Assembly (NCBI GenBank): GCA_012838235.1
Contig: DUPQ01000009.1
Location: 29,681-93,680 of the forward strand
Direction of reading: 5' to 3'
Source of the DNA: Clostridiaceae bacterium
GTDB lineage: Bacteria > Bacillota > Clostridia > DUPQ01
Length of the DNA stretch: 64,000 bases
Positions 39,221 to 52,804 of this stretch are shown here, piece after piece. The number at the start of each line of letters is the position of its first letter. The first letter of the stretch is position 1. The position numbers and the translations under genes are program-made. Below the pieces are notes generated by a model. That model ran no database searches and had not been told where the DNA came from. It worked only from the letters and a program-made list of their open reading frames with translations.

Positions 39221-39291
39221 CAAGGCACTTTAAAAAAGGCTTAATATAGGGTATAATAGTAAATGAATTTACTAATCCGTTCGGATAGTAC
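39221..39291 (+). repeat. Promoter/leader repeat, copy 1
   Basis: 71-bp segment including TATAAT (39252-39257) and a short dyad ATCCG-TT-CGGAT (39275-39286). It aligns along its length with 40614-40683. It ends about 30 bases before the first lipoprotein start. Upstream the ATGAACTTTT tandem present at copy 2 is not intact here. Confidence 0.75.
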
Positions 39292-39320
39292 GAAAGTTAT
39301 CAAATACGGGAGAAACTGTT

Positions 39321-40556
39321 ATGAACAAAAAACTATACTTAGCGGTAGCTGTTTTGCTGATACTGTCCTTTATATTATGCTCCTGCCGTAAAGAAGCCCA
39401 AATAGTTCCGGCACCGACGGAAACCGAAGATACCGGCTTGGTTATACTGCAACCGGACTTGTCTCTTCCGGATGAGTATTACACATCCATGAATCAGGGA
39501 GCTAAAATATGGCATTGCTATCTCAATACTCCCTACGGCAAATATCATAATGTAGAAGGTTTCATTCACTATTCCCAATACGGAAATACGAAATTTATGA
39601 CATTATGTCAAAAAGAAAATTGTCCGCATAAGTACGATGATTGTGATGCATATGTCGGAAAAAACACTCAGATAGGTTATTATCATGGAAATATATATTT
39701 TGTGCAAAGAGCGGGCAATATGTTAATGACACTTTACAAAATGAATATGGACGGAACCGAACGTCAGACCGTAAAAGCAATTATTACCGATATACAACTT
39801 TCCATCAAGGAAATGCACGGTTTCTTTCACTCGGGTTATTACTATTTTGTATTGACCGACGATCAATACATGGGGTCCCGGTTCAACACCGATAAAAACC
39901 TCTATCGCATCAGATTGGACGACGATTCTCCGTATGAATCGGTTTTCTGCCATGATATAATTCCGATGGCTTACCGATTTACTTTAGTCGACAATAATGT
40001 ATTCTTCTATGTCCGGACGGGAACCTACACTGAAGGTACCAAAAACCCGGAAAACTTTGCTGTAGATTTTGAACTGTATAAGCTATCTCTTACAGACAAT
40101 GAATTATGTTTATTGACGGACAACTGGTCGGATTTTACCAACTGCTATTTCGATTCGGAGAACGGATACTGCTATAAACATAATGACGGTTTCTATGTAT
40201 TGAACCTTGCCACAAAGGAGAAGACCAAAGTTGCCGATTCCGCAATTAAAGGCGGTTGGGGAACGGTTGCTCACTTCTATCCCGACAACATTTATGTTAT
40301 TGCTTTTAAAAAGACCAAGAATAACAGAGGTCATGACAGATATTATGACGACCAGACTTTGTATATACTTGATTGGGAGTATAACATTGTGAATATTTAC
40401 AATAATCCGACTTCAAGTACGGAAGCGGGATTCTTAATTGATGATACCGGTAACTGTATTGTACTGTCTACCGATTCACATAAACCGCCCGATTATTTCA
40501 TATATAAATCGGATTTCGGAATGAAAAGTCTTAAATTGTATGAGATTACACATTGA
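39321..40556 (+). CDS. Secreted lipoprotein with conserved C/H motif, copy 1
   Basis: 411 aa. The signal peptide MNKKLYLAVAVLLILSFILCSC ends in a lipobox, predicting a lipid-anchored protein outside the membrane. A Pro-rich spacer follows (PAPTETEDTG), then a beta-rich body with repeated Tyr/Asp/Gly strands (YKMNMDGTERQTVKA, YRIRLDDDSPYESVF, YKLSLTDNELCLLTD) suggesting a propeller-like fold. A striking motif LCQKENCPHKYDDCDAY holds three Cys and one His. I recognise no enzyme family; related lipoproteins occur in gut Clostridia. It is about half identical to the next gene, so it is a tandem duplicate. The ATG follows ACGGGAG. Confidence 0.75.
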   Translation: MNKKLYLAVAVLLILSFILCSCRKEAQIVPAPTETEDTGLVILQPDLSLPDEYYTSMNQGAKIWHCYLNTPYGKYHNVEGFIHYSQYGNTKFMTLCQKENCPHKYDDCDAYVGKNTQIGYYHGNIYFVQRAGNMLMTLYKMNMDGTERQTVKAIITDIQLSIKEMHGFFHSGYYYFVLTDDQYMGSRFNTDKNLYRIRLDDDSPYESVFCHDIIPMAYRFTLVDNNVFFYVRTGTYTEGTKNPENFAVDFELYKLSLTDNELCLLTDNWSDFTNCYFDSENGYCYKHNDGFYVLNLATKEKTKVADSAIKGGWGTVAHFYPDNIYVIAFKKTKNNRGHDRYYDDQTLYILDWEYNIVNIYNNPTSSTEAGFLIDDTGNCIVLSTDSHKPPDYFIYKSDFGMKSLKLYEITH

Positions 40557-40589
40557 TTGCTGATTATATGCCTTCCTTTATATCGAAAT

Positions 40590-40610
40590 ATGAACTTTTA
40601 ATGAACTTTT
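40590..40610 (+). promoter_or_regulatory. 11-bp-period direct repeat, likely response-regulator site (lipoprotein 2)
   Basis: ATGAACTTTT occurs at 40590-40599 and again at 40601-40610, a perfect 10-bp repeat with one intervening base (A). It lies just upstream of the -35 region for the TATAAT at 40635. The identical tandem (52741-52761) precedes the ABC operon. The layout is that of PhoB/OmpR-type boxes. No such regulator is encoded in the window. Confidence 0.7.
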
Positions 40611-40613
40611 ACC

Positions 40614-40683
40614 CAAAGCACTTCAAACGAGCTTTATAATAAGTATAATAATAAGTGAATTGGTTAATCCGCTCGGATTGTAC
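40614..40683 (+). repeat. Promoter/leader repeat, copy 2
   Basis: 70-bp segment matching 39221-39291, with TATAAT at 40635-40640 and 40644-40649 and the dyad ATCCG-CT-CGGAT (40667-40678). The shared 5' region shows that the whole transcription unit, not only the coding part, was duplicated. Confidence 0.75.
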
Positions 40684-40709
40684 ATATTTCAATACAAGGA
40701 GATTTTATC

Positions 40710-41984
40710 ATGAATAAAAAACTATACTTAACGGTAGCTGTTTTGCTGATATTATGTTTTGTGCTGTCATCCTGCCGAAACGAAACACAAATCAGTTTTA
40801 CACCGACAAATACAGTTGAATCGGATTTAGTTATACTGCAACCGGATTTATCCTTACCGGATGAGTATTATACATCCATGAACCAGGGAGCACGGGTATG
40901 GCATTCCTATCTGAATACCCCCTACGGTAAATATCATTATGTTGACGGTTTTATTCTCTATTCGCAATACGGAAATTCAAAGTTTGTTAAATTATGTACA
41001 AAAGCCGAATGTACCCATACGGATGATGATTGTGATGCATACCTCGGGAAAATTGATCAAATAGTTCCCACAAACGAAAAAACTATTCAGTTAGGTTATT
41101 ATGAAAATAACATATATTATGTTGAGAGATCAAAAAAGAACGGTTTAGATTGGAATCTTATCAAAATGAATATGGACGGTACGGAACGTCAACTTGTAAA
41201 AACTTTTGCGACCGTGTCGCTGACACAAGGAAAAAGATGCTTAGGGTTTTTTCATTCCGGTTATTACTATTTTGTAATGATTAACGCAGGACAGGAAATG
41301 GGCTCGAAGTACAACACCGACAACAATTTCTATCGTGTTAAATTGGATGATTATTCGGAATATGAGTCGGTTATCAGTCATGATGTAATACCCGAAGCTT
41401 GCATGTTTACGCTTGTCGGTGACAATGTATTCTTTTATGTCAGAACAGGTCCCTACAATGAAAACTATAAACTGTACGATGAGAACCCCGCCGAGTATGA
41501 ACTGTATATGCTCTCTCTTACGGATAAGAATATGCGTTTATTGACGGATAAGTGGGCGGACTACAGAAACTCTCATTTCGATTGGGAAAACGCATACTGC
41601 TACAAACATAATGACGGTTTCTATGAATTGAATCTTACGTCTGAACAGATGAACAAAGTTGCCGATTTTAAGATTGAAGATGCTTGGGGTTCTCTTGCAT
41701 ATTTCTATCCCGACTATAATTACATCATTGCTTTTGCAAAGACCTCTGACAGCAGAGGCTATCCCAGATACTTTGACAGTCAGACTTTGTATATACTTGA
41801 CAAGCAATATCACATATTGAACTCTTGCATTATTGATGCTTTGAAACTGGATACAGGATGCTTTATTGATGATACCGGAATCTCCGTTTTACTGGCATCC
41901 TCCGCTCACAAGCCCATAGATTTCTTTATATACAAGTCGGATATCGGGACGGACAATGTTAAATTGAATGAAATAACGGATTGA
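40710..41984 (+). CDS. Secreted lipoprotein with conserved C/H motif, copy 2
   Basis: 424 aa. Leader MNKKLYLTVAVLLILCFVLSSC with a clean lipobox (VLSSC), then the same architecture as the previous gene: LVILQPDLSLPDEYYTSMNQGA is nearly identical in both. The Cys/His motif is conserved as LCTKAECTHTDDDCDAY. It is slightly longer, with an insertion after DAYLGK (QIVPTNEKT). AAGGAG lies nine bases before the ATG. It converges on the ABC operon with a 52-bp gap. Function unknown; it could be a sensor or substrate-binding accessory of that ABC system, inferred only from the shared operator and location. Confidence 0.75.
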   Translation: MNKKLYLTVAVLLILCFVLSSCRNETQISFTPTNTVESDLVILQPDLSLPDEYYTSMNQGARVWHSYLNTPYGKYHYVDGFILYSQYGNSKFVKLCTKAECTHTDDDCDAYLGKIDQIVPTNEKTIQLGYYENNIYYVERSKKNGLDWNLIKMNMDGTERQLVKTFATVSLTQGKRCLGFFHSGYYYFVMINAGQEMGSKYNTDNNFYRVKLDDYSEYESVISHDVIPEACMFTLVGDNVFFYVRTGPYNENYKLYDENPAEYELYMLSLTDKNMRLLTDKWADYRNSHFDWENAYCYKHNDGFYELNLTSEQMNKVADFKIEDAWGSLAYFYPDYNYIIAFAKTSDSRGYPRYFDSQTLYILDKQYHILNSCIIDALKLDTGCFIDDTGISVLLASSAHKPIDFFIYKSDIGTDNVKLNEITD

Positions 41985-42036: not shown

Positions 42037-44874
42037 TCAGTCCTCACCCAGTTTAAGTGCCTGATCCGCTTTAAGTTTGGATGTAAATCTCAAAATTACC
42101 GATAAACCGATTGTCAGTGCCGCACCTGTGATAATGTAAACCCTGTTATAATCCACAACCTCCCGGTAGGCATAAAAAGGAAGAAAATTACTGCTGAAAG
42201 TGGACATTCTTTCAAACAAGGGAACAAATAACTTACTTGCTATGCCGCCTATTAATATGCCCGCTAAAACCGATACAAAGGAAATCATGAGCTGCTCGTA
42301 GAATATCATCCTGTACAGTTCATGTTTCTTCATACCCATTGCACGGAGAATACCGAACTGTAATACCCTCTGTCGCACCGATATAATCCAGAATATAATA
42401 AAACCTATACAGCATATAAGCATGGATATAAGAAAATCCAATGTAAGTATTCCGTTTATTCCGTTCAGAACCGATCCTCTCTTTGCCTGTGTTGCTTCAT
42501 AATCGGTAAAAGAATTTGTGCCTATTGATTCGTCAAAGGACATCCTTGTTTTCATATCTTCCAGAACCTCATTATCGCTGACGCCTTCTTTTTTATCCAC
42601 CAGCACCTTCCCGTTCTGCCTAAAATGCCTCATCGAAGAGTATTTGTTCTGCGTCATAATAATAAAATTATCTACCGTCATTGTAGGCCAATAATCCACA
42701 ACCGCAACAACAAGCACGTCTTTCACGGGAATCTCCTGCACTTCCCGAAACGCTCTGTTTGTGTAGGTAAAATCGAAATATTGTCCTGCTTTAACGTTAT
42801 AAAGCTGTGAAATACTACGCGATATGATTATCCCCTTAGGATATGTTGACAAAATATTCAATATGTGATTTAAGGGTACGCCTTCATTCAAATCTTTTCT
42901 TATCTTTACAACCCTGCCGAAATCACCCGGTTCAATACCCATAAAAGTTACCGATTGATTCGAAGGTCTTAAAGTGGTATTGTGATAGTAATAGACGGTA
43001 TAGTTCTCAATCAAATCGGAATTACAGTATTTATGGGCCTGTTTACTTAGACCCGGTCCTCTGTTGTCCGCAAAATAATACCCGTTCAAAATGAAATCAT
43101 ATTCAAGAACCGAGGGCACGAAAGATATATCGGCACCTATGGAATGCTTCAGATTGTCTTTAAGATTCTCATTAAGCGTTCTTCCCGCATTTGCATTGAA
43201 TATACCGATACCTATTGCCAGTATGAGGAAAATCATAATAAACTGCTTGTAATTCCCTCCCCTTGCCACATGAGTAAATGCGGCATAGGAAGCGGGTTTC
43301 CATCGCTCCTTTCCTATCCTGAAAATCAATTCCACCAAATACGGAAACAGCCTTATAAACAACAAACCCGTACCCAGCACAAAAAATGTCACCGCTACGA
43401 ATAAAGTAAAATCCACCGAGGTAATCTGTGCAAACTGTATATACTCCTTCACCGATTCATAATCGAAAAGGAAATATATGGCGATACCGATAAGAATGAC
43501 ATCTAAAAATATAATCTGCCAGAAGGACTTTTTTGATTGTTCGGCAATATTCTGCTTATGTTGCACAATGGTGAATTTTGACGCTCTGTATGCCGGTACC
43601 AGTATCAGTATAAGATATGTTGTAGCACATATTGCGGCATACAATAACGCGGCAGAAGTTAAGGTAGCATCAATTGCCGTCCTGTTTACAAATTCCATAA
43701 ATCCGTTTGCCGCCCCCAACAGACGACATAAAAATCGCGCAATTAAAATTCCCAGAACATATGAAATAACGGAGATGACTATACCTTGTGCCAAGTATAT
43801 CAAGAAAATCTGACTTCTGCTTGCACCTCTGCTGGCTAAAACGGAAATTTCCGCCTTCTCCCTTTCCATCATTAACCTGGATATCATCACAACATATATA
43901 CCGACCATCAATATTACAGGCAACAGCAGTAAGATGTACAGTCTTTGCATTGCTTTAACATCTTCACTGTATTTTTCCAAAAGCGTCATATAACTGTTTG
44001 AAGAGGACAGCATAACCTTTGAGTCGGCATCATATGAATCCAGAACCTTGGTAGCGGCTATTATCCTGTCACTGTGCCGAAGTTTAACGGTTGTATAATC
44101 AAATGCGCAAAACCAATTGGCCGATTGCAAGGTTATCTCCTCATTACCTATCATTTCCAGCATCTTATCGTAATCTATCAGGAATGTTTTGTCGGACAAT
44201 GTGTAAAATGCAGCCGATTCATCGGTATTTTCCACTACTCCGACAATTACTATTTTTACAAGCAAATCAATGTCCGTCATTTTATTGTAGACATATAGAG
44301 TATCACCTACCGAAATGCGATTCATTATAGTGGAGTTTTTTGTAATAACCGCCTCCACTACTCCTTCTTCCGTATCCGTACTGTACATGCGCCCTCCGAC
44401 AAGTTTAATCATATCCGGTACTTTTGCAAAAGAAGTTATTGTAAAACTCGATTTTATTGTAAGATTCCTTGTATAAAGTTTTTCTCCTCTGGCAATCATA
44501 TCCTGTTTGATTTCATAATTTCGTTTATCAAAAACGGGATAGGAAACCGTGGATATACTTTTATAATCGAATATATTTTTTGCAGGTATGTTTGCAACAT
44601 ATCGGTCATAAAATTTGCTGTCAAGATCGTTAAATGTTTTTATCGAATCACTTTTTTTCATACCCAGAAAACTTGCATTTAAATATGCCTTAAACGGAAA
44701 AGAATCAAACTCTTCCTGCAGTTTTTTAAATTCCTCGGACAACTGCAAATTATATAAACCGGTAGTATACATGGGAATTGCGGCAACGACCGCAACAGCG
44801 AATGCACAGCCTATTATGAGGCAGATGACCAACCATTTATTATTCCATATTTTTCTGAATATAAGTCTCAGCAT
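42037..44874 (-). CDS. FtsX-like ABC permease, second copy
   Basis: 945-aa membrane protein. N-terminal membrane segment LVICLIIGCAFAVAVVAAIP, a large outside domain to about residue 310, three membrane segments (LYILLLLPVILMVGIYVVMI etc.), a second central hydrophobic set, another outside domain, and C-terminal segments with RQRVLQFGILRAMGMKKHELYRMIFYEQLMISFVSVLAGI, the FtsX/MacB coupling signature. It starts MLRLIFRKIWNNKW, nearly the same as its paralogue at 48835-51669. It is last in the operon, 68 bases after the third adaptor. Together with the ATPases it would expel or mechanically move a substrate rather than import one. Confidence 0.88.
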   Translation of the reverse strand: MLRLIFRKIWNNKWLVICLIIGCAFAVAVVAAIPMYTTGLYNLQLSEEFKKLQEEFDSFPFKAYLNASFLGMKKSDSIKTFNDLDSKFYDRYVANIPAKNIFDYKSISTVSYPVFDKRNYEIKQDMIARGEKLYTRNLTIKSSFTITSFAKVPDMIKLVGGRMYSTDTEEGVVEAVITKNSTIMNRISVGDTLYVYNKMTDIDLLVKIVIVGVVENTDESAAFYTLSDKTFLIDYDKMLEMIGNEEITLQSANWFCAFDYTTVKLRHSDRIIAATKVLDSYDADSKVMLSSSNSYMTLLEKYSEDVKAMQRLYILLLLPVILMVGIYVVMISRLMMEREKAEISVLASRGASRSQIFLIYLAQGIVISVISYVLGILIARFLCRLLGAANGFMEFVNRTAIDATLTSAALLYAAICATTYLILILVPAYRASKFTIVQHKQNIAEQSKKSFWQIIFLDVILIGIAIYFLFDYESVKEYIQFAQITSVDFTLFVAVTFFVLGTGLLFIRLFPYLVELIFRIGKERWKPASYAAFTHVARGGNYKQFIMIFLILAIGIGIFNANAGRTLNENLKDNLKHSIGADISFVPSVLEYDFILNGYYFADNRGPGLSKQAHKYCNSDLIENYTVYYYHNTTLRPSNQSVTFMGIEPGDFGRVVKIRKDLNEGVPLNHILNILSTYPKGIIISRSISQLYNVKAGQYFDFTYTNRAFREVQEIPVKDVLVVAVVDYWPTMTVDNFIIMTQNKYSSMRHFRQNGKVLVDKKEGVSDNEVLEDMKTRMSFDESIGTNSFTDYEATQAKRGSVLNGINGILTLDFLISMLICCIGFIIFWIISVRQRVLQFGILRAMGMKKHELYRMIFYEQLMISFVSVLAGILIGGIASKLFVPLFERMSTFSSNFLPFYAYREVVDYNRVYIITGAALTIGLSVILRFTSKLKADQALKLGED

Positions 44875-44942
44875 TTATTTCTACCCGATATAATTATTTA
44901 CTGTAATCTATTGAGTATAATAATATGTAAAAACTTCCAAAA

Positions 44943-46031
44943 TCACTCAAATGACGAACCGGTTATTATAAGATCGTCTTCATACAATCCGTCCAATACA
45001 AGGTATGCGGTGCCGTTTAATACTTTATTGCCGACTATAAGAGTGCGGGGTACCTTTCTGCCGTTTTCCAGAACATAGGTAAAGTCTTTACCCTCGGATG
45101 TCTTCCTGACATATGATACCGGTACTACAATGACATCATCATATTTCGCCAGTGTCATATCATAGAACAGAGCATATTTTATCAGTTCGCCGTAATCAAC
45201 ACCTTCTTCTTTTATAAACTCAAGGTATACAAAAGCAGTTTTTATTTTTGAACCGGCAAGTTCGGTTGTTCTGGTGAATATTGATTTAATTATCATATTA
45301 TGGATTTTCCCGTCTTTATCATATATCTGAAGAGTATCACCTGATTTATATCCGAGTTCTTCAAAATAAGGATATCCGGCAGCTGTTATCTGTAAACTGA
45401 CACTGTAATTATCGGGAGTAATATAATATGTTACCGAATACACCTTGTATTGATTATTGAATTCATCTTTCTCATTTTTGTATGTCGTTACAACTTTGTT
45501 AACCGTTCCGCTGTAAGGTGCCTTAAACTGAAGCGTCTCCAGTTTTTCCAATGCTTTGTCATAATTAAACTGTGCAAGCTCCATATCCGATAAAGCCAAC
45601 TGCATATCATAGTATCCCTCACCGGTATTGAGATACTTTCTGTAAAGTTCTTCATATAACAATTGTTTCAGTTCCAAATCTTCCAGTTTAAGACGCAAAT
45701 CATACTCTAAAGTTTTATCGCTTTTGACAGCAAGAACATCCCCTTCTTTCACAACAGTATTCTGTTCGGATACCAGAAGTGTTGCCGACTCGAAATCGGA
45801 ATAGGAAAATACTATGCCTCTGCTTCCTCCTAAACTCTGAGCATCCAAATTGATTCTTTCGTAATCATGTATATCCTGTTTTTCCACCTTTAAAGTGGTA
45901 AATACCTCTTTCGGTATATCAAAAACAGGTATTTCATAAGTAACCGCTTGGGTAGCACACGATGTAAGAATAGCTGTGAAAACTATTATTATAATAATTG
46001 AAATTAAAAGGTTTGTTCTCTTTTCTATCAT
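44943..46031 (-). CDS. HlyD-like lipoprotein adaptor, third copy
   Basis: 362 aa with leader MIEKRTNLLISIIIIIVFTAILTSC (lipobox LTSC). The body has a lipoyl-like/hairpin layout: VVKEGDVLAVKSDKT, a coiled-coil hairpin (LEDLELKQLLYEELYRKYLNTG, QLALSDMELAQFNYDKALEKLETLQFKAPYSGTVNKV) and C-terminal barrel-type domains ending VLENGRKVPRTLIVGNKVLNGTAYLVLDGLYEDDLII. This is a periplasmic-adaptor type used here by a cell with a single membrane. The ATG overlaps the preceding adaptor stop (ATGA). It probably links the permease at 42037 to its function. Confidence 0.85.
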   Translation of the reverse strand: MIEKRTNLLISIIIIIVFTAILTSCATQAVTYEIPVFDIPKEVFTTLKVEKQDIHDYERINLDAQSLGGSRGIVFSYSDFESATLLVSEQNTVVKEGDVLAVKSDKTLEYDLRLKLEDLELKQLLYEELYRKYLNTGEGYYDMQLALSDMELAQFNYDKALEKLETLQFKAPYSGTVNKVVTTYKNEKDEFNNQYKVYSVTYYITPDNYSVSLQITAAGYPYFEELGYKSGDTLQIYDKDGKIHNMIIKSIFTRTTELAGSKIKTAFVYLEFIKEEGVDYGELIKYALFYDMTLAKYDDVIVVPVSYVRKTSEGKDFTYVLENGRKVPRTLIVGNKVLNGTAYLVLDGLYEDDLIITGSSFE

Positions 46032-47152
46032 CTTAATACTACCTTATCCCCTTCTTCCAACCCTTCTAATACTTCGTAATAAGCATCAAAAATATCGCCG
46101 ATCTTAATTCGGACACGCTCTATAGTCTCATCCGGTAATATCTTATAGACCTGATATACAAACGGTTCCTCCGGGTCGTCCGTTTTTTCCATATCTACTG
46201 CACTTCTGGAAACAATCAATACATCGTACGCTTCTCTTCTTATCAATTTACCGGTAAACTCCTGATAGAACACCACATCTTCGGGAAGTTTGTTATCGTT
46301 AAGCTCCAATGCCAGATATAAGTAGGCTCCGCCGCTGAAATAACTCAAATCATTTACATACTCTTTTTTAAACGTCATATTGCTCATGCTGACACGGCCG
46401 GAATATGTCCTATCCGATTGCTCGTCATATAATTCCATTCCGGTGCCTTCGAAACACAGCGTAAAGGGGTATGCGGCATATTCATTCTGTTCTCGTGCAT
46501 ATGTCAACAGGATACCGTCTTCAATTTTGCATATATGAAAAACCAGTGTCTGCACTTCATCCGTGGAAACCGTATCTCCCTCTATTTTGGCTATGTAACC
46601 GTCAACCGGTGCTCTCAATGTATATTTGTCCGGTATGGCATTAAAGGAGTCCAGAGCGTTTTTTGCAACCGCATAGGCTTTTTGAAGGTTTTGCAGAGTC
46701 TGCTCGTTAATCTTTCCCTGCTGATACTGGATATATGCATTCTCATATCGTATTTCCGCTCTTCTTTTATTCCAATTGACTTGAAACTCCGCATCTTTGT
46801 TTACTTCATATACATACTCTACTAAAATATCGCCTTCCATGACATAGTCGTTGGGTTCAACATACAGCTTTTGTATCTTAGCCCGGGCTATTTCGCTTTG
46901 CACTATTGTAGTTTTTTTCGGATTGTTCACATATACTAATCGTCTTCCGAATTCTTCACCTAAGTCAAATCCCTCAAATACATCGGTTTTTCTTACTTCA
47001 AAACTATCCAATTCCACCTTTTTTTGCTCAATCAGCTCCGGCTGTACGGCATGATATCTGCCTTCCAACGGATAGAAATATGTGCAACCTGTAAGAAATG
47101 AAAGCATTACGGCGGCAATAATAAACAGGATAATAAATGATTTATTCTTCAT
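46028..47152 (-). CDS. HlyD-like lipoprotein adaptor, second copy
   Basis: 374 aa from MKNKSFIILFIIAAVMLSFLTGC, a signal peptide with lipobox LTGC. The track start at 47236 reads 28 residues into the ATPase; the ATG at 47152 has GGAGGAG six bases upstream. Lipoyl-type half motifs (KLYVEPNDYVMEGDILVEYVYEVN and YTLRAPVDGYIAKIEGDTVSTDE) flank a helical hairpin (RRAEIRYENAYIQYQQGKINEQTLQNLQKAYAVAKNALDSF). The end, RIKIGDIFDAYYEVLEGLEEGDKVVL, is the usual adaptor C-terminus. Second of three adaptors, which differ strongly from one another. Confidence 0.85.
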   Translation of the reverse strand: MKNKSFIILFIIAAVMLSFLTGCTYFYPLEGRYHAVQPELIEQKKVELDSFEVRKTDVFEGFDLGEEFGRRLVYVNNPKKTTIVQSEIARAKIQKLYVEPNDYVMEGDILVEYVYEVNKDAEFQVNWNKRRAEIRYENAYIQYQQGKINEQTLQNLQKAYAVAKNALDSFNAIPDKYTLRAPVDGYIAKIEGDTVSTDEVQTLVFHICKIEDGILLTYAREQNEYAAYPFTLCFEGTGMELYDEQSDRTYSGRVSMSNMTFKKEYVNDLSYFSGGAYLYLALELNDNKLPEDVVFYQEFTGKLIRREAYDVLIVSRSAVDMEKTDDPEEPFVYQVYKILPDETIERVRIKIGDIFDAYYEVLEGLEEGDKVVLR

Positions 47153-48164
47153 CTTTCTCCTCCGTATATATAACAATCTTTTCTTCTTCCATCTTAATTC
47201 GCACTTTACTGTTGTTGGGAATCTTGGCAAGTTCAAGATATTCTTCGGGTATTTTTAAGCGTCCCTGCCTGTCTACTACAATCATTTCCTCATGAGTTTC
47301 CGACTCTTCCACTCCGGTCATTCTGTCTAATTCCATTATCTGTTCTTTATAGGATTTTTTCTTGATATACTCGCTTCCCGTTCTTCCGTCTTCAATTGTA
47401 ACTACCCTGTCCACATTCTTTGATATTGCTCTGTCATGTGTGACTATAATGATGGTAACTCCGTATTCCGTATTCAGTTTTCGGAAAATATTGTATATCA
47501 ATGCCGCAGTAGCGGTATCCACCGCTCCGGTAGGTTCATCAGCAAGTAATATTTTAGGGTCGTTTGCCATTGCTATGGCTATGGCTACTCTTTGCTGTTC
47601 TCCTCCGGAAAGCTGTGACAAACGGTTTTTCATTCTGTCTTTAAGTCCCATTAAATCTAAAAGTTCAGCGGCACGCTTTTTGGCATCCTTCCTGCCTGCA
47701 AGTATCATGGGTATCTCCACATTATGAATGGCCGGCAAATAAGGTATAAGGTTTCTTGCGTTGTTCTGCCACACGAAACCTACCTTCTCCTTCTTATATC
47801 TCAGCAGTTCCGACTTTTTCATTCTTAACAGATTTTCACCGTCCACTATCAGCGTTCCCGCGGAAGGCACGTCCAGACCTCCTATTAAGTTCATCAGAGT
47901 GGATTTACCGCTTCCGCTGTTACCTATTATTGCCATCATCTCGCCTTTTTTTATCTCCAGTTCCAGCCCCTGCAGAGCAACCACTTCGGTATCCTTGGAT
48001 TTATAAATCTTTACCAACCCGTCGCAAAAAATGATATGATCGGGTGTGTAACCCGGTATTTCCGACTCATCCTGACCGTAGAAATTCTTGGTCTCCATCT
48101 CGTCAGAATCGGTTTTGTGTTTTTTAAAGACGGTATTAAAGAATGATTTTATCTTTTTAATCAT
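47142..48164 (-). CDS. ABC ATPase with AbrB-like C-terminal domain
   Basis: 340 aa, longer than the usual 225-250 for this class. An N-terminal basic helix (MIKKIKSFFNTVFKKHK) and linker of about 45 residues precede a MacB/LolD-type ATPase: Walker A IIGNSGSGKSTLMNLIGG, signature RLSQLSGGEQQRVAIAIAM, Walker B PKILLADEPTGAVDTATA, H-loop IIIVTHD. After about residue 285 there is MIVVDRQGRLKIPEEYLELAKIPNNSKVRIKMEEEKIVIY, which matches the swapped-hairpin AbrB/MazE fold by pattern. Whether it binds DNA, or only dimerises the ATPase, is unknown. The ATG overlaps the first ATPase stop (ATGA). Confidence 0.88.
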   Translation of the reverse strand: MIKKIKSFFNTVFKKHKTDSDEMETKNFYGQDESEIPGYTPDHIIFCDGLVKIYKSKDTEVVALQGLELEIKKGEMMAIIGNSGSGKSTLMNLIGGLDVPSAGTLIVDGENLLRMKKSELLRYKKEKVGFVWQNNARNLIPYLPAIHNVEIPMILAGRKDAKKRAAELLDLMGLKDRMKNRLSQLSGGEQQRVAIAIAMANDPKILLADEPTGAVDTATAALIYNIFRKLNTEYGVTIIIVTHDRAISKNVDRVVTIEDGRTGSEYIKKKSYKEQIMELDRMTGVEESETHEEMIVVDRQGRLKIPEEYLELAKIPNNSKVRIKMEEEKIVIYTEEKDEE

Positions 48165-48835
48165 TTCACTACCCTCCCGTCTTCCAGCCTTATAACATTA
48201 TCGGCAAGCTCAATCATACTCGGATCATGCGTTGTCATTATTATTGTCAGTTTTTCTTCATCCACAAGATGCCGAAACAGTCGAACTATTCTCAAACCTG
48301 TCTTTGTATCCAACTCCGCGGTCGGTTCATCGGCAAATATTAATTCCGGCCTTGCAACTATTGAGCGTGCAATGGCAACTCTTTGCTGCTCTCCTCCCGA
48401 AAGCTGGTGCGGTTTATGTTTCATTCTTCTTTCCAGACCGACAAATGTCAATGCTTCCTTAACCAGCCTGTCCCGTTTCTTGGGATGCACCCCCGCCATA
48501 CGAAGACCGAACTCGACATTCTCATATGCATTGAGTACGGATATTAAAGCTACCGACTGGAAAACGAATCCCATGCTCTTTCTTCTTATTTCATCCCGCT
48601 TATTCTCGCTTAAATCGGAAATCTCCCTGTCATGAAAGAATATCTGTCCCGAAGTAGGCCTGTCCAATGCACCGGCTATATTCATAAGCGTTGTTTTACC
48701 CGACCCCGACCTGCCTGCAAGCATTGTAAGCGTACCGGGTTGTATGGATACATTTACATCCACAAGAGCATGTACTGTCTGGCTTCCCTGCTTAAAATCT
48801 CTGCATATATCCACGGTTCTCAATAATACAGCCAT
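48161..48835 (-). CDS. ABC transporter ATPase, MacB/LolD type
   Basis: 224 aa, a minimal ATPase. Walker A TMLAGRSGSGKTTLMNIAGALDRP, Q-loop FVFQSVALISVLNAYENVEF, signature HQLSGGEQQRVAIARSIVARP, Walker B LIFADEPTAELDTKTG, H-loop IIMTTHDPSMIELADNVIRLEDGRVV. All catalytic residues are present. Its start shares one base with the stop of the FtsX-like gene upstream (TGATG). Two ATPases and two permeases in one operon suggest a heterodimeric machine or two related complexes. Confidence 0.92.
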   Translation of the reverse strand: MAVLLRTVDICRDFKQGSQTVHALVDVNVSIQPGTLTMLAGRSGSGKTTLMNIAGALDRPTSGQIFFHDREISDLSENKRDEIRRKSMGFVFQSVALISVLNAYENVEFGLRMAGVHPKKRDRLVKEALTFVGLERRMKHKPHQLSGGEQQRVAIARSIVARPELIFADEPTAELDTKTGLRIVRLFRHLVDEEKLTIIMTTHDPSMIELADNVIRLEDGRVVK

Positions 48836-51669
48836 CAGTCTTCTCCTAACTTCAGTGCCTGATCTATCTTTAATTTGGATATGAACCTTATAAGCACCGA
48901 TAATCCGATAATTAACGATACACCCGTTATAACATAAATCCTTATGTAATCAATTCCGTCTCTGTAAGTGGCAAAAGGAAGGTATTGATTGCTTAATGTC
49001 GACATTCTCTCAAATAAAGGAACAAACAGCTGACTGGCAACACCGCCTATCACAATACCCGCAATAACCGATACGAAAGAAATCATCAGCTGTTCATAGA
49101 ATATCATTCTGTATAATTCCCCTTTGTTCATTCCCATTGCACGGAAAATACCGAATTGCAATACTCTCTGTCTGACCGATATAATCCAGAAAATTATAAA
49201 ACCGATACAGCACACTATCATGGATATTAAGAAATCCAGTGTCAATATTCCGTTCATTCCGTTCAGAATGGAATTCTTCTTAGCCAACGTTACATTATAG
49301 TCGGTGAAATTTATACTGTCTATGGTTTCTTCCGGTCCCATTTTTCCTTTTATATCCGCCAGAACCTGACTGTCCAAAACACCGTCTTTTTTATCTATCA
49401 ATATCCTGCCTCTTGTATCAAAATCCTTCATTACGAAATAGTTGTCACGTGTCATGACAATAAAGCGTTCGTCTGTCATTGCCGGCCAGTAATCCACTAC
49501 CGCCACCACAAGGGCATTCTCTACTAAATTTTCGACAGTCACACCTTCTATAACAGACGTATACACATAATTCATAAACTGTCCCTCTTTCACCCCGTAT
49601 TCGTTTGCGAGCGATCTGGATATTATCATGCCCTGAGGGTAAGAGGACAGAGTATTCAATATGTGATTAATGGGAATACCTTCATTCAAATCTTTCCGTA
49701 ATTTTACAACATTGCCGAATTCGTACGGCTCAATCCCCATAAATACTATAGGTTCTCTTGAAGGCCTGGTTTCGGTCTTGTAATAATAATATGTAGTGTA
49801 ATTTTCAACGAAATCGGAATTACAGTATAACCGCGCAAAAGACATAAGAGCTGCACCTTTAATGGGTTTGTAATCGAAAGTTCCCTTATCATTGAGTACA
49901 ATCAGGGTAGGTACAAAAGATGCGTCCGCACCTATTTCATAACGGATATTATCTTCCAGATTCTCATTAAGAGTCCTACCGGAATTGGCATTGAAAATAC
50001 CCACGCCTATCGTAAGAATGAGGAAAATCATTATAAAATGCTTGTAGTTACCGCCGCGGGAAACATGCATTAATGCATTGTATGATGCCGGTTTCCAATG
50101 CCTCTTTCCTATGATAAACACAAGTTCCGTCAGATAAGGGAACAACCTGATAAACAATAACCCCAATCCCAATATAAACATGGTTACCGCCAGGAACAAT
50201 GTAAAATCCACCTGTGCCGATTGCACATCCTGGATATATTTGCTCATTTGTTCATAATCATAAAGGAAATATAGCGAGACACCAATCAGAATGACATCCA
50301 AGAACATAATCTGCCAGAAAGATCTCCTGGATTGGTCTGCTATGCTCTGCTTGAGCTGAACAATTGTATACTTTGATGCTTTGTATGCAGGTACCAGAAT
50401 CATTATGAGATATATCAGAGCACATACTACGGCATACAACAGAGAAGTGCTTTCAAACCTGACTTCAATTGCCGTTCTGTTGACAAATTCCATGAATCCG
50501 TTTGCCGCTCCGAGAAGATGACACAGCAATCGCGCAAGCAATATACCTAAAACAAAGGAAACTACCGCTATGACAATACCCTGTCCCAGATAGATAAGAA
50601 AAATCTGATTTCTGCTTGCACCTCTGCTCGCCAAAGTGGCTATTTCCGATTTTTCCCTGTCCATCATCAACCGAGAAATCATGACAACATACATCCCTAT
50701 CATCAAAATGACCGGTATTATCAGAAGCAGAAACATCTTCTGCATAGTCTGCATGTCACGATTATAGTTGCTTATAATGGAAATATAGTTGTTCGATGTA
50801 TTTATAATTACGCCCGTAACACTGCTGGATGTGGATAAAGCCTGCGTAGCCTGTGAGATATCATTGGCATATCTTAAGCGGACGGTGGTATAGTCAAAAG
50901 CTGCAAACCAGTTTGCCTGATTTAAAGTAATCCGTGATTCTTTTAACATTTCCTGCATAATGTCAAAATCTATAATAAAAGCTCTTTCCGCAACAGAGAA
51001 AAAGGAAGCCGAAGATTCATTTACCTTTACTATGCCTACAATTTTAATTTTTGCTATAAAATCATCATCGTCGGGCTTGTTGTAGACAAAATAGTAATCG
51101 CCTACCGACATCCGATATAAAGCGGCGGCATATTCGGATATTACCGCCTCAATCACTCCTTCTTCGGTACCCGTCTGCATAATGCGTCCGCCCACAACAT
51201 CAAAAACAGTCTCTGCATCTACAACGGAAGTAAGACAAAAATCCGTCTTTATCGTAAAGTTTCTATATGACGGCTTTTCTTCCTTCAAAAGATTATCCTG
51301 TTTTATCCTGTAATTGTTCTGATCCAGGACGGAATAAGTTTTGGTGGCAACACTGTTGCAGTCCTTCATAACTTCAACCGGCATATTAGCCATGTATTTG
51401 TTATAGAAAGTGTTATCAAGATTTTCGTATACTCGCTTGGAGGTATCGCTTCCCAGTCCGAAAAATGTCACATTGTATGATGCTTTAAACGGAAAAGTAT
51501 CAAATTGCACCTGCTCTTTTTTAAATTCGTTTACCAACATTGTGTTGTACATACCCGAAGCATACATGGGAATTGCCGCAGCTACCCCGATGGCAAATGC
51601 ACACCCTATGATAAGACAGATAACCATCCATTTATTATTCAAAATTTTTCTGAATATGAGTCTCAGCAT
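48835..51669 (-). CDS. FtsX-like ABC permease, first copy
   Basis: 944 aa, same domain order as the copy at 42037-44874 and obviously paralogous to it (MLRLIFRKILNNKWMVICLIIGCAFAIGVAAAIPMYASGMYN; later RQRVLQFGIFRAMGMNKGELYRMIFYEQLMISFVSVIAG). Between the membrane sets are two large outer domains of about 250 and 220 residues, typical of mechanotransmitting type VII permeases, but with the central six-helix insertion of longer family members. It follows the first adaptor by one base, so the two are coupled. Substrate unknown. Confidence 0.9.
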   Translation of the reverse strand: MLRLIFRKILNNKWMVICLIIGCAFAIGVAAAIPMYASGMYNTMLVNEFKKEQVQFDTFPFKASYNVTFFGLGSDTSKRVYENLDNTFYNKYMANMPVEVMKDCNSVATKTYSVLDQNNYRIKQDNLLKEEKPSYRNFTIKTDFCLTSVVDAETVFDVVGGRIMQTGTEEGVIEAVISEYAAALYRMSVGDYYFVYNKPDDDDFIAKIKIVGIVKVNESSASFFSVAERAFIIDFDIMQEMLKESRITLNQANWFAAFDYTTVRLRYANDISQATQALSTSSSVTGVIINTSNNYISIISNYNRDMQTMQKMFLLLIIPVILMIGMYVVMISRLMMDREKSEIATLASRGASRNQIFLIYLGQGIVIAVVSFVLGILLARLLCHLLGAANGFMEFVNRTAIEVRFESTSLLYAVVCALIYLIMILVPAYKASKYTIVQLKQSIADQSRRSFWQIMFLDVILIGVSLYFLYDYEQMSKYIQDVQSAQVDFTLFLAVTMFILGLGLLFIRLFPYLTELVFIIGKRHWKPASYNALMHVSRGGNYKHFIMIFLILTIGVGIFNANSGRTLNENLEDNIRYEIGADASFVPTLIVLNDKGTFDYKPIKGAALMSFARLYCNSDFVENYTTYYYYKTETRPSREPIVFMGIEPYEFGNVVKLRKDLNEGIPINHILNTLSSYPQGMIISRSLANEYGVKEGQFMNYVYTSVIEGVTVENLVENALVVAVVDYWPAMTDERFIVMTRDNYFVMKDFDTRGRILIDKKDGVLDSQVLADIKGKMGPEETIDSINFTDYNVTLAKKNSILNGMNGILTLDFLISMIVCCIGFIIFWIISVRQRVLQFGIFRAMGMNKGELYRMIFYEQLMISFVSVIAGIVIGGVASQLFVPLFERMSTLSNQYLPFATYRDGIDYIRIYVITGVSLIIGLSVLIRFISKLKIDQALKLGED

Positions 51670-51670
51670 A

Positions 51671-52672
51671 TTAATTGGTCCCCGTTATAATCATAGTATC
51701 CTCATCAATACCTTGCCCGGGAAGTATTTCCACTTCCGAAGATGAAGCCAATCCTATGTTTATTTCCATATTCGTGGGGGTATTATCTTTTAATACCCTT
51801 ACCGCAGCTGTTTTCTGATCTCTAATAGTAACAGCATATTTCGGGAGTTTGAGTACATCATAAACTTCATCAATTATTACTTTGATTTGCACTACTTCTC
51901 CCGCAGTTACCGCATCCATATCATCCAATCCGAACGAAAGATTTGTTCCCTCGGATGTTAACACATATCCGTCATATTCAATTTCTTTACTGACAATTAT
52001 CACACTCGCTCCGGGCTTCAATTTAGAGGCATTGGCAGCGGATGCGGTACCGCTGATGCTCTTATATTGTCCCGTTGCAATAGAACAGAATCTTATAGTC
52101 TTACCGATAGGAGTACCTTTTGCAATATCATTGGTAAAGGAACGAATATTTACTATAAAGCCCGATTGTGATGCCCGAAGCTCCTTATTGGTCATGTAAG
52201 TATAAAGGTCGTCATACTTCTCTTTTGCATGATTATAAGCAATTTCCGCCCTTCTGAACTGATACTCGGTGGCGGCATTCTTCACATACAGGTCCTGTAC
52301 CCTTATAAACTCGTTCAAGGCATTTAAATAAGTGTTCTCCACCTGCTCTCTGTCTTCGCGGTCGGACAGTACGGCTATCAACTGTCCTTTCTCTACATAC
52401 TGTTCGTTTTCCACAAACAATTCTTCCAGATATCCGTCTACCGAAAAAAACTGATCCTGCAGGTTCTCATACCTGTTAGCAACATTACAAAGAATGGTTA
52501 TGGAGTTTACAATATCTCCTTTTGTGGGATTTATAGTCTTATACTCCACGGGAGCCGTTGAGGGAACAGGCAATAACAGCATCTCATCTTCCTTGGGGAA
52601 GATTGACATACAACCTGTCAAACAAATCAATAATATTATCAGTAGTATGGAAATATATGCTTTTTTAATCAT
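51671..52672 (-). CDS. HlyD-like lipoprotein adaptor, first copy
   Basis: 333 aa. Leader MIKKAYISILLIILLICLTGC (lipobox LTGC). Adaptor features: LFVENEQYVEKGQLIAVLSDREDREQVENTYLNALNEFIRVQDLYVKNAATEYQFRRAEIAYNHAKEKY is a helical hairpin entering from a half lipoyl motif; LRASQSGFIVNIRSFTNDIAKGTPI is its other half; the C-terminus LKLPKYAVTIRDQKTAAVRVL, then VEILPGQGIDEDTMIITG completes the barrel domains. First gene of the seven-gene ABC operon, 13-20 bases after the predicted transcription start. Confidence 0.85.
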   Translation of the reverse strand: MIKKAYISILLIILLICLTGCMSIFPKEDEMLLLPVPSTAPVEYKTINPTKGDIVNSITILCNVANRYENLQDQFFSVDGYLEELFVENEQYVEKGQLIAVLSDREDREQVENTYLNALNEFIRVQDLYVKNAATEYQFRRAEIAYNHAKEKYDDLYTYMTNKELRASQSGFIVNIRSFTNDIAKGTPIGKTIRFCSIATGQYKSISGTASAANASKLKPGASVIIVSKEIEYDGYVLTSEGTNLSFGLDDMDAVTAGEVVQIKVIIDEVYDVLKLPKYAVTIRDQKTAAVRVLKDNTPTNMEINIGLASSSEVEILPGQGIDEDTMIITGTN

Positions 52673-52740: not shown

Positions 52741-52761
52741 ATGAACTTTTCATGAACTTTT
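52741..52761. promoter_or_regulatory. 11-bp-period direct repeat, likely response-regulator site (ABC operon)
   Basis: ATGAACTTTT at 52741-52750 and 52752-52761, separated by one C. The same tandem occurs at 40590-40610 before the second lipoprotein. In the direction of the operon it reads AAAAGTTCATGAAAAGTTCAT, upstream of the weak promoter. The downstream gap 52762-52804 shows nothing else. Confidence 0.72.
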
Positions 52762-52804
52762 TATAAATCTTTTCAAAAACCGCAGGAAATATCACAATAA
52801 TCTG

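Follow-up and report, generated by a model that had tools for sequence, protein, structure and literature searches.

Two predicted lipoprotein genes, lying in tandem in the 64,000-nt stretch of DNA analysed here (the window), descend from one gene that was copied together with its promoter, leader dyad and ribosome-binding site (RBS) in this lineage, and the second copy shares with the adjacent ABC-exporter operon the same 18 operator bases, which the first copy lacks. Copy 1 (39321–40556) and copy 2 (40710–41984) are intact open reading frames on the plus strand, of 411 and 424 amino acids, and their products are 60% identical. Read by eye, each begins with a hydrophobic signal followed by a lipobox cysteine (L-x-SC, residues 19 to 22), as expected of a lipoprotein, and the lipobox is conserved across the family. 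The two proteins are predicted to be extracytoplasmic, lipid-anchored beta-propellers belonging to a Clostridia family distantly related to Pfam DUF5050. A search for a close homologue on a plasmid found none, and no PHROGs or NCBIfam name scored above its cut-off for the lipoproteins or for the small exported proteins encoded near their relatives.

The upstream regions of the two genes have the same layout. The copy-1 promoter and leader (39221–39320, plus strand) contain a -35-like TTTAAA (39229–39234), a -10 TATAAT (39252–39257), the dyad ATCCGTTCGGAT (39275–39286) and the RBS GGGAG (39308–39312). The copy-2 promoter and leader (40614–40709, plus strand) contain a -35-like TTCAAA (40622–40627), the same TATAAT (40644–40649), the dyad ATCCGCTCGGAT (40667–40678) and the RBS AAGGAG (40696–40701). 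The two dyads have the common form ATCCG-N2-CGGAT, with TT in the middle in copy 1 and CT in copy 2. The regions can be aligned from just 5' of the -35 element through the RBS, with a local alignment score of 81, compared with 20.7 +/- 3.6 (maximum, 38) for 1,000 dinucleotide shuffles and no more than 34 when 620 further window segments were scored. An earlier note on this DNA had proposed, from the TATAAT and the ATCCG/CGGAT dyad in both upstream blocks, that a full unit was duplicated with its promoter and leader; both elements are indeed present in both blocks, and the alignment score and the tree bear this proposal out. In the tree the two copies are sisters (support, 100/99), and as a pair they are sister to single genes of the related species G001 and G003, which makes the duplication specific to this lineage, after its split from G001 and G003. 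The pair has a dN of 0.27, a dS of 1.15 and a third-position identity of 58%, and so is old and has been under purifying selection.

The dyad with its flanks (AATCCGNTCGGATNGTAC) has exact matches genome-wide only at the two window copies. As a candidate for a wider regulon in the genus it was rejected: beyond the window copies there was one match, with two mismatches, in G001, which we take to be due to chance. A hairpin in the leader RNA was likewise rejected, because folding of the dyad RNA is no better than that of shuffled sequences; if the dyad matters, it is therefore more likely to act as a DNA site.

Copy 2 is preceded by a direct repeat with an 11-bp period, the tandem operator TGAACTTTTAATGAACTTTTA (40591–40611, plus strand; TGAACTTTTAATGAACTTTT at 40591–40610), which lies 11 nt upstream of the copy-2 -35 element. 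Upstream of copy 1 there is no recognisable counterpart, the best register nearby having 8 mismatches over the 18 positions. The earlier note's statement that the intact tandem operator is confined to copy 2 gave no coordinates; it holds if the operator meant is TGAACTTTTAATGAACTTTTA, with which we equated it, copy 1 having at least 8 mismatches in 18. The pattern TGAACTTTTNATGAACTTTT, in which 18 bases are fixed and one A is shared, is matched exactly at three places in the 2.25-Mb assembly, whereas a Markov model built from the window predicts about 1.8e-4, and a reversed control pattern has no match at up to 3 mismatches. The three sites are that of copy 2, one at window position 52742 and one at position 2499 of contig C1. 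The second of these, TGAACTTTTCATGAACTTTTT (52742–52762, plus strand), lies upstream of the minus-strand exporter operon in the orientation opposite to transcription, and it has no conserved counterpart in G001, G002 or G003. The C1 site precedes an operon with a weak match to a MacB-like permease (20.7 bits; cut-off, 27), and its gap to the -35 element is identical to that at copy 2 (11 nt). A related site, AGAACTTTTTGTGAACTTTG, is found 10 nt before the -35 element of a heparinase-like gene and is kept in G001 and G003; as a side observation, a conserved direct-repeat site with a promoter precedes the heparinase II/III-like gene in three species (L134 position 2615, on contig C37 of this assembly; L080; and L082). 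Two-mismatch matches to the operator in more distant genomes were discarded, their context being inconsistent and the control counts similar.

The 11-bp period of the repeat points to a regulator of the OmpR/PhoB type, and the copy-2 operator, a direct repeat of about this period at a promoter, has the form of such a site. The assembly encodes 11 OmpR-type regulators above the Pfam cut-off, none of which adjoins the pair. Like OmpR/PhoB boxes and the HssR box, the operator consists of two half-sites, with a period of 11 bp, immediately 5' of a promoter. The HssR box is a direct repeat upstream of hrtAB, which encodes an FtsX/MacB-type exporter, and one copy of the operator similarly precedes an ABC-exporter operon; the likeness to the HssR box is tentative, the sequence of its repeat not having been found in the open literature searched. 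Unlike HssR- and PhoB-type boxes, the operator has the half-site TGAACTTTT, and its orientation varies between targets. A Pho box was considered and rejected: in L132, no site before pstS of the pst operon scored above 13 bits with a position weight matrix. An operator-like site at position 2158 of L131 (contig C46 of this assembly), upstream of a gene for a small exported protein and an adjacent OmpR-type regulator/kinase pair, scores 17.5 bits, too weak for us to make a claim for this candidate operon.

Convergent with the pair lies the exporter operon (42037–52672, minus strand). It encodes permease B (42037–44874) and permease A (48835–51669), both of the FtsX type and 60% identical to each other; between them two adaptor-like lipoproteins (44943–47236) and two ATPases (47142–48164 and 48161–48835); and, beyond permease A, a third adaptor-like lipoprotein (51671–52672). 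G001 and G003 have the same exporter, with neither the pair lipoproteins nor permease B at the locus; there the exporter precedes an S41-peptidase gene (the family was tested in G001), which in G001 is followed by cysE. Given these absences, the simplest reading is that the pair was inserted in this lineage.

An AlphaFold2 model of the fold is all-beta (pLDDT, 76.6; pTM, 0.77) and matches propellers in the PDB, and there are sequence matches to the Pizza and LRP6 propellers. The fold is accordingly that of a beta-propeller. Its distant relative is DUF5050 (PF16472), a beta-propeller family of unknown function on which we found little literature. Family proteins share the propeller fold with DUF5050. 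Copies 1 and 2 themselves fall outside the Pfam model, giving no match at all, and so do not reach its gathering cut-off; 2 of the 14 relatives in one alignment (A6) match it, and the L040 and G045 homologues pass the cut-off. One DUF5050 propeller is TsgL, which belongs to T7SSg, a variant of type VII secretion (PMC11217815). In our fullest survey, which took in 149 genomes of one taxonomic family, 39 had a homologue, and a broad search of the phylum for homologues added almost nothing. The assembly itself holds nine family genes, one of which is frameshifted as assembled (L037, 2958–4140, on contig C43) and may be a pseudogene or reflect an assembly error. Another is split between the end of C43 and the start of C54, which implies that these contigs adjoin.

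Both copies carry the motif C96-x4-C101-x-H103-x4-C108, encoded at 39606–39644 in copy 1 and at 40995–41033 in copy 2. The form C-x4-C-x-H-x(4-6)-C is invariant in 7 paralogues from this genome and in a set of 18 homologues, and in 14 diverged homologues (15 to 21% identity to the reference row) the motif supplies four of the seven invariant columns. In a survey of homologue loci, taking at each locus the motif-bearing open reading frame nearest the match, C-x4-C-x-H-x(n)-C was present at 35 of 35, with n from 4 to 13. An invariant C-x4-C-x-H-x(n)-C early in the propeller is the hallmark of the family. The earlier note had suggested that the motif could bind a metal or form disulfides, and had held that cysteines not conserved in homologues would refute it; the motif is kept throughout the 35 loci and both multiple alignments. 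Between its two options, the conserved set of three cysteines and one histidine, with no fourth conserved cysteine, favours a metal site over disulfides, and we infer that the motif fits metal binding better. Disulfides bracing the first blade seem quite improbable to us: an extracytoplasmic location would suit them, and some members have extra cysteines, but the number of conserved cysteines besides that of the lipobox is odd (three), there is no other conserved cysteine position and the histidine is as invariant as the cysteines. The CCHC zinc knuckle has the spacing C-x2-C-x4-H-x4-C; the lipoprotein motif has the same set of ligands within about 13 residues, but with a different spacing and order (C-x4-C-x-H-x4..13-C) and inside a propeller.

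The relatives often keep particular genomic company. A same-strand open reading frame with a Walker A motif lies within about 1.5 kb at 25 of the 35 homologue loci (one of the 25, L143, being a doubtful open reading frame), compared with 18 of 124 control genes, a rough control drawn from the fetched segments. At two loci in G001 and in several genomes of other families, the lipoprotein gene adjoins genes for an ATPase of the ABC type (GLLGPNGAGKST) and for a long permease, and at these ABC-2-type loci a small exported open reading frame often lies upstream of the lipoprotein gene. In G001, locus L034 (2720–14975) contains seven family genes in tandem, six of them preceded by a gene for a small exported protein (about 130 amino acids), and the array is followed by an ABC ATPase gene and a long permease-like open reading frame. 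At L139 (G104) and L140 (G228), family lipoproteins are encoded beside AgrB, regulator/kinase-like and ABC-2-type transporter genes. LanI is a lantibiotic immunity lipoprotein that works with the ABC-2 transporter LanFEG, and the relatives similarly encode a surface lipoprotein beside an ABC-2-type ATPase and permease. Unlike LanI, the family protein is a propeller of about 400 amino acids with a CCHC motif, and unlike those of LanFEG, the relatives' ATPases score below the cut-off for the lantibiotic-protection model. The window pair is flanked by neither an ABC-2 ATPase and permease nor a small exported protein, the neighbouring exporter being of the FtsX/adaptor type, and the other family loci that were read in this genome, some of them cut off by the end of a contig, showed no adjacent ABC-2 ATPase and permease either. 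The pair looks like an orphaned, expanded branch of the family.

A joint account of the copied propeller lipoproteins, the operator common to copy 2 and the exporter, the metal motif and an accessory or sensor role for the exporter seems to us, by a small measure, probable. A response regulator of the OmpR/PhoB type would bind the operator, just upstream of a weak -35 element, as a head-to-tail dimer, so that copy 2 and the exporter would be induced jointly and copy 1 expressed independently of the exporter; that the two promoters respond differently, as the earlier note suggested, is a prediction from their sequences. The C/H motif would bind a metal ion, for instance zinc, in a structural role, and the propeller may serve as a surface accessory or sensor of an ABC exporter, the role that the relatives probably play for their adjacent ABC-2 systems. 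Against this account, the neighbouring exporter is of another type and stands without the lipoproteins in G001 and G003, the exporter-side operator is reversed relative to transcription and unconserved, and there is no adjacent regulator. Ordinary expansion of paralogues, with an old tandem duplicate whose promoters drifted neutrally and a repeat whose sharing with the ABC operon has no functional meaning, would accord with this lack of conservation in relatives, with the nine family genes of the assembly, one of them frameshifted, and with the seven in tandem in G001. We nevertheless consider it unlikely, because the three exact 18-base matches far exceed expectation and all precede genes or operons, and two of the sites share their spacing to the -35 element.

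A further possibility, which we regard as rather doubtful, is that the family belongs to a bacteriocin or peptide immunity and export module, the lipoprotein binding a peptide outside the cell and the window pair being a remnant or a free-standing protection protein. The order of small exported open reading frame, lipoprotein and ABC-2 system in G001, G035, G104 and further loci speaks for such a module, as do the AgrB genes beside the lipoprotein in two genomes, a weak match (20.8 bits; cut-off, 40) of one small exported protein to the JUQZ model of bacteriocins and the matches of neighbouring ATPases to lantibiotic-protection models, below cut-off. Against it, all matches to bacteriocin models are below the curated cut-offs, most of the small exported proteins match nothing, and nothing of this kind lies beside the window pair. 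Elements of these readings could be combined: the CCHC propeller lipoproteins would be metal-binding, outer-face partners of a distinct ABC-2 system for small exported, bacteriocin-like proteins; here the lipoproteins would have multiplied and parted from their transporter, one duplicate being recruited with the FtsX-type exporter into a response-regulator regulon. We put this combination forward only as a conjecture that is more probably wrong than right by a wide measure.

Overall, the upstream alignment, the copy-2 operator and the shared motif confirm the paired-lipoprotein observation of the earlier note, and of its interpretation the duplication, the operator confined to copy 2 and the conservation of the motif stand, the disulfide option being disfavoured. 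Two points are new here: the operator recurs, both before the neighbouring exporter and before a distant operon, and the CCHC motif is invariant in a family whose genes frequently accompany those for ABC-2 transporters. This Clostridia lipoprotein family, with its CCHC motif and its genes often next to those for ABC-2 transporters and small exported proteins, has apparently not been described before, and the pair offers a testable case of duplicates with the same promoter core, only one of which shares an upstream control site with an exporter.
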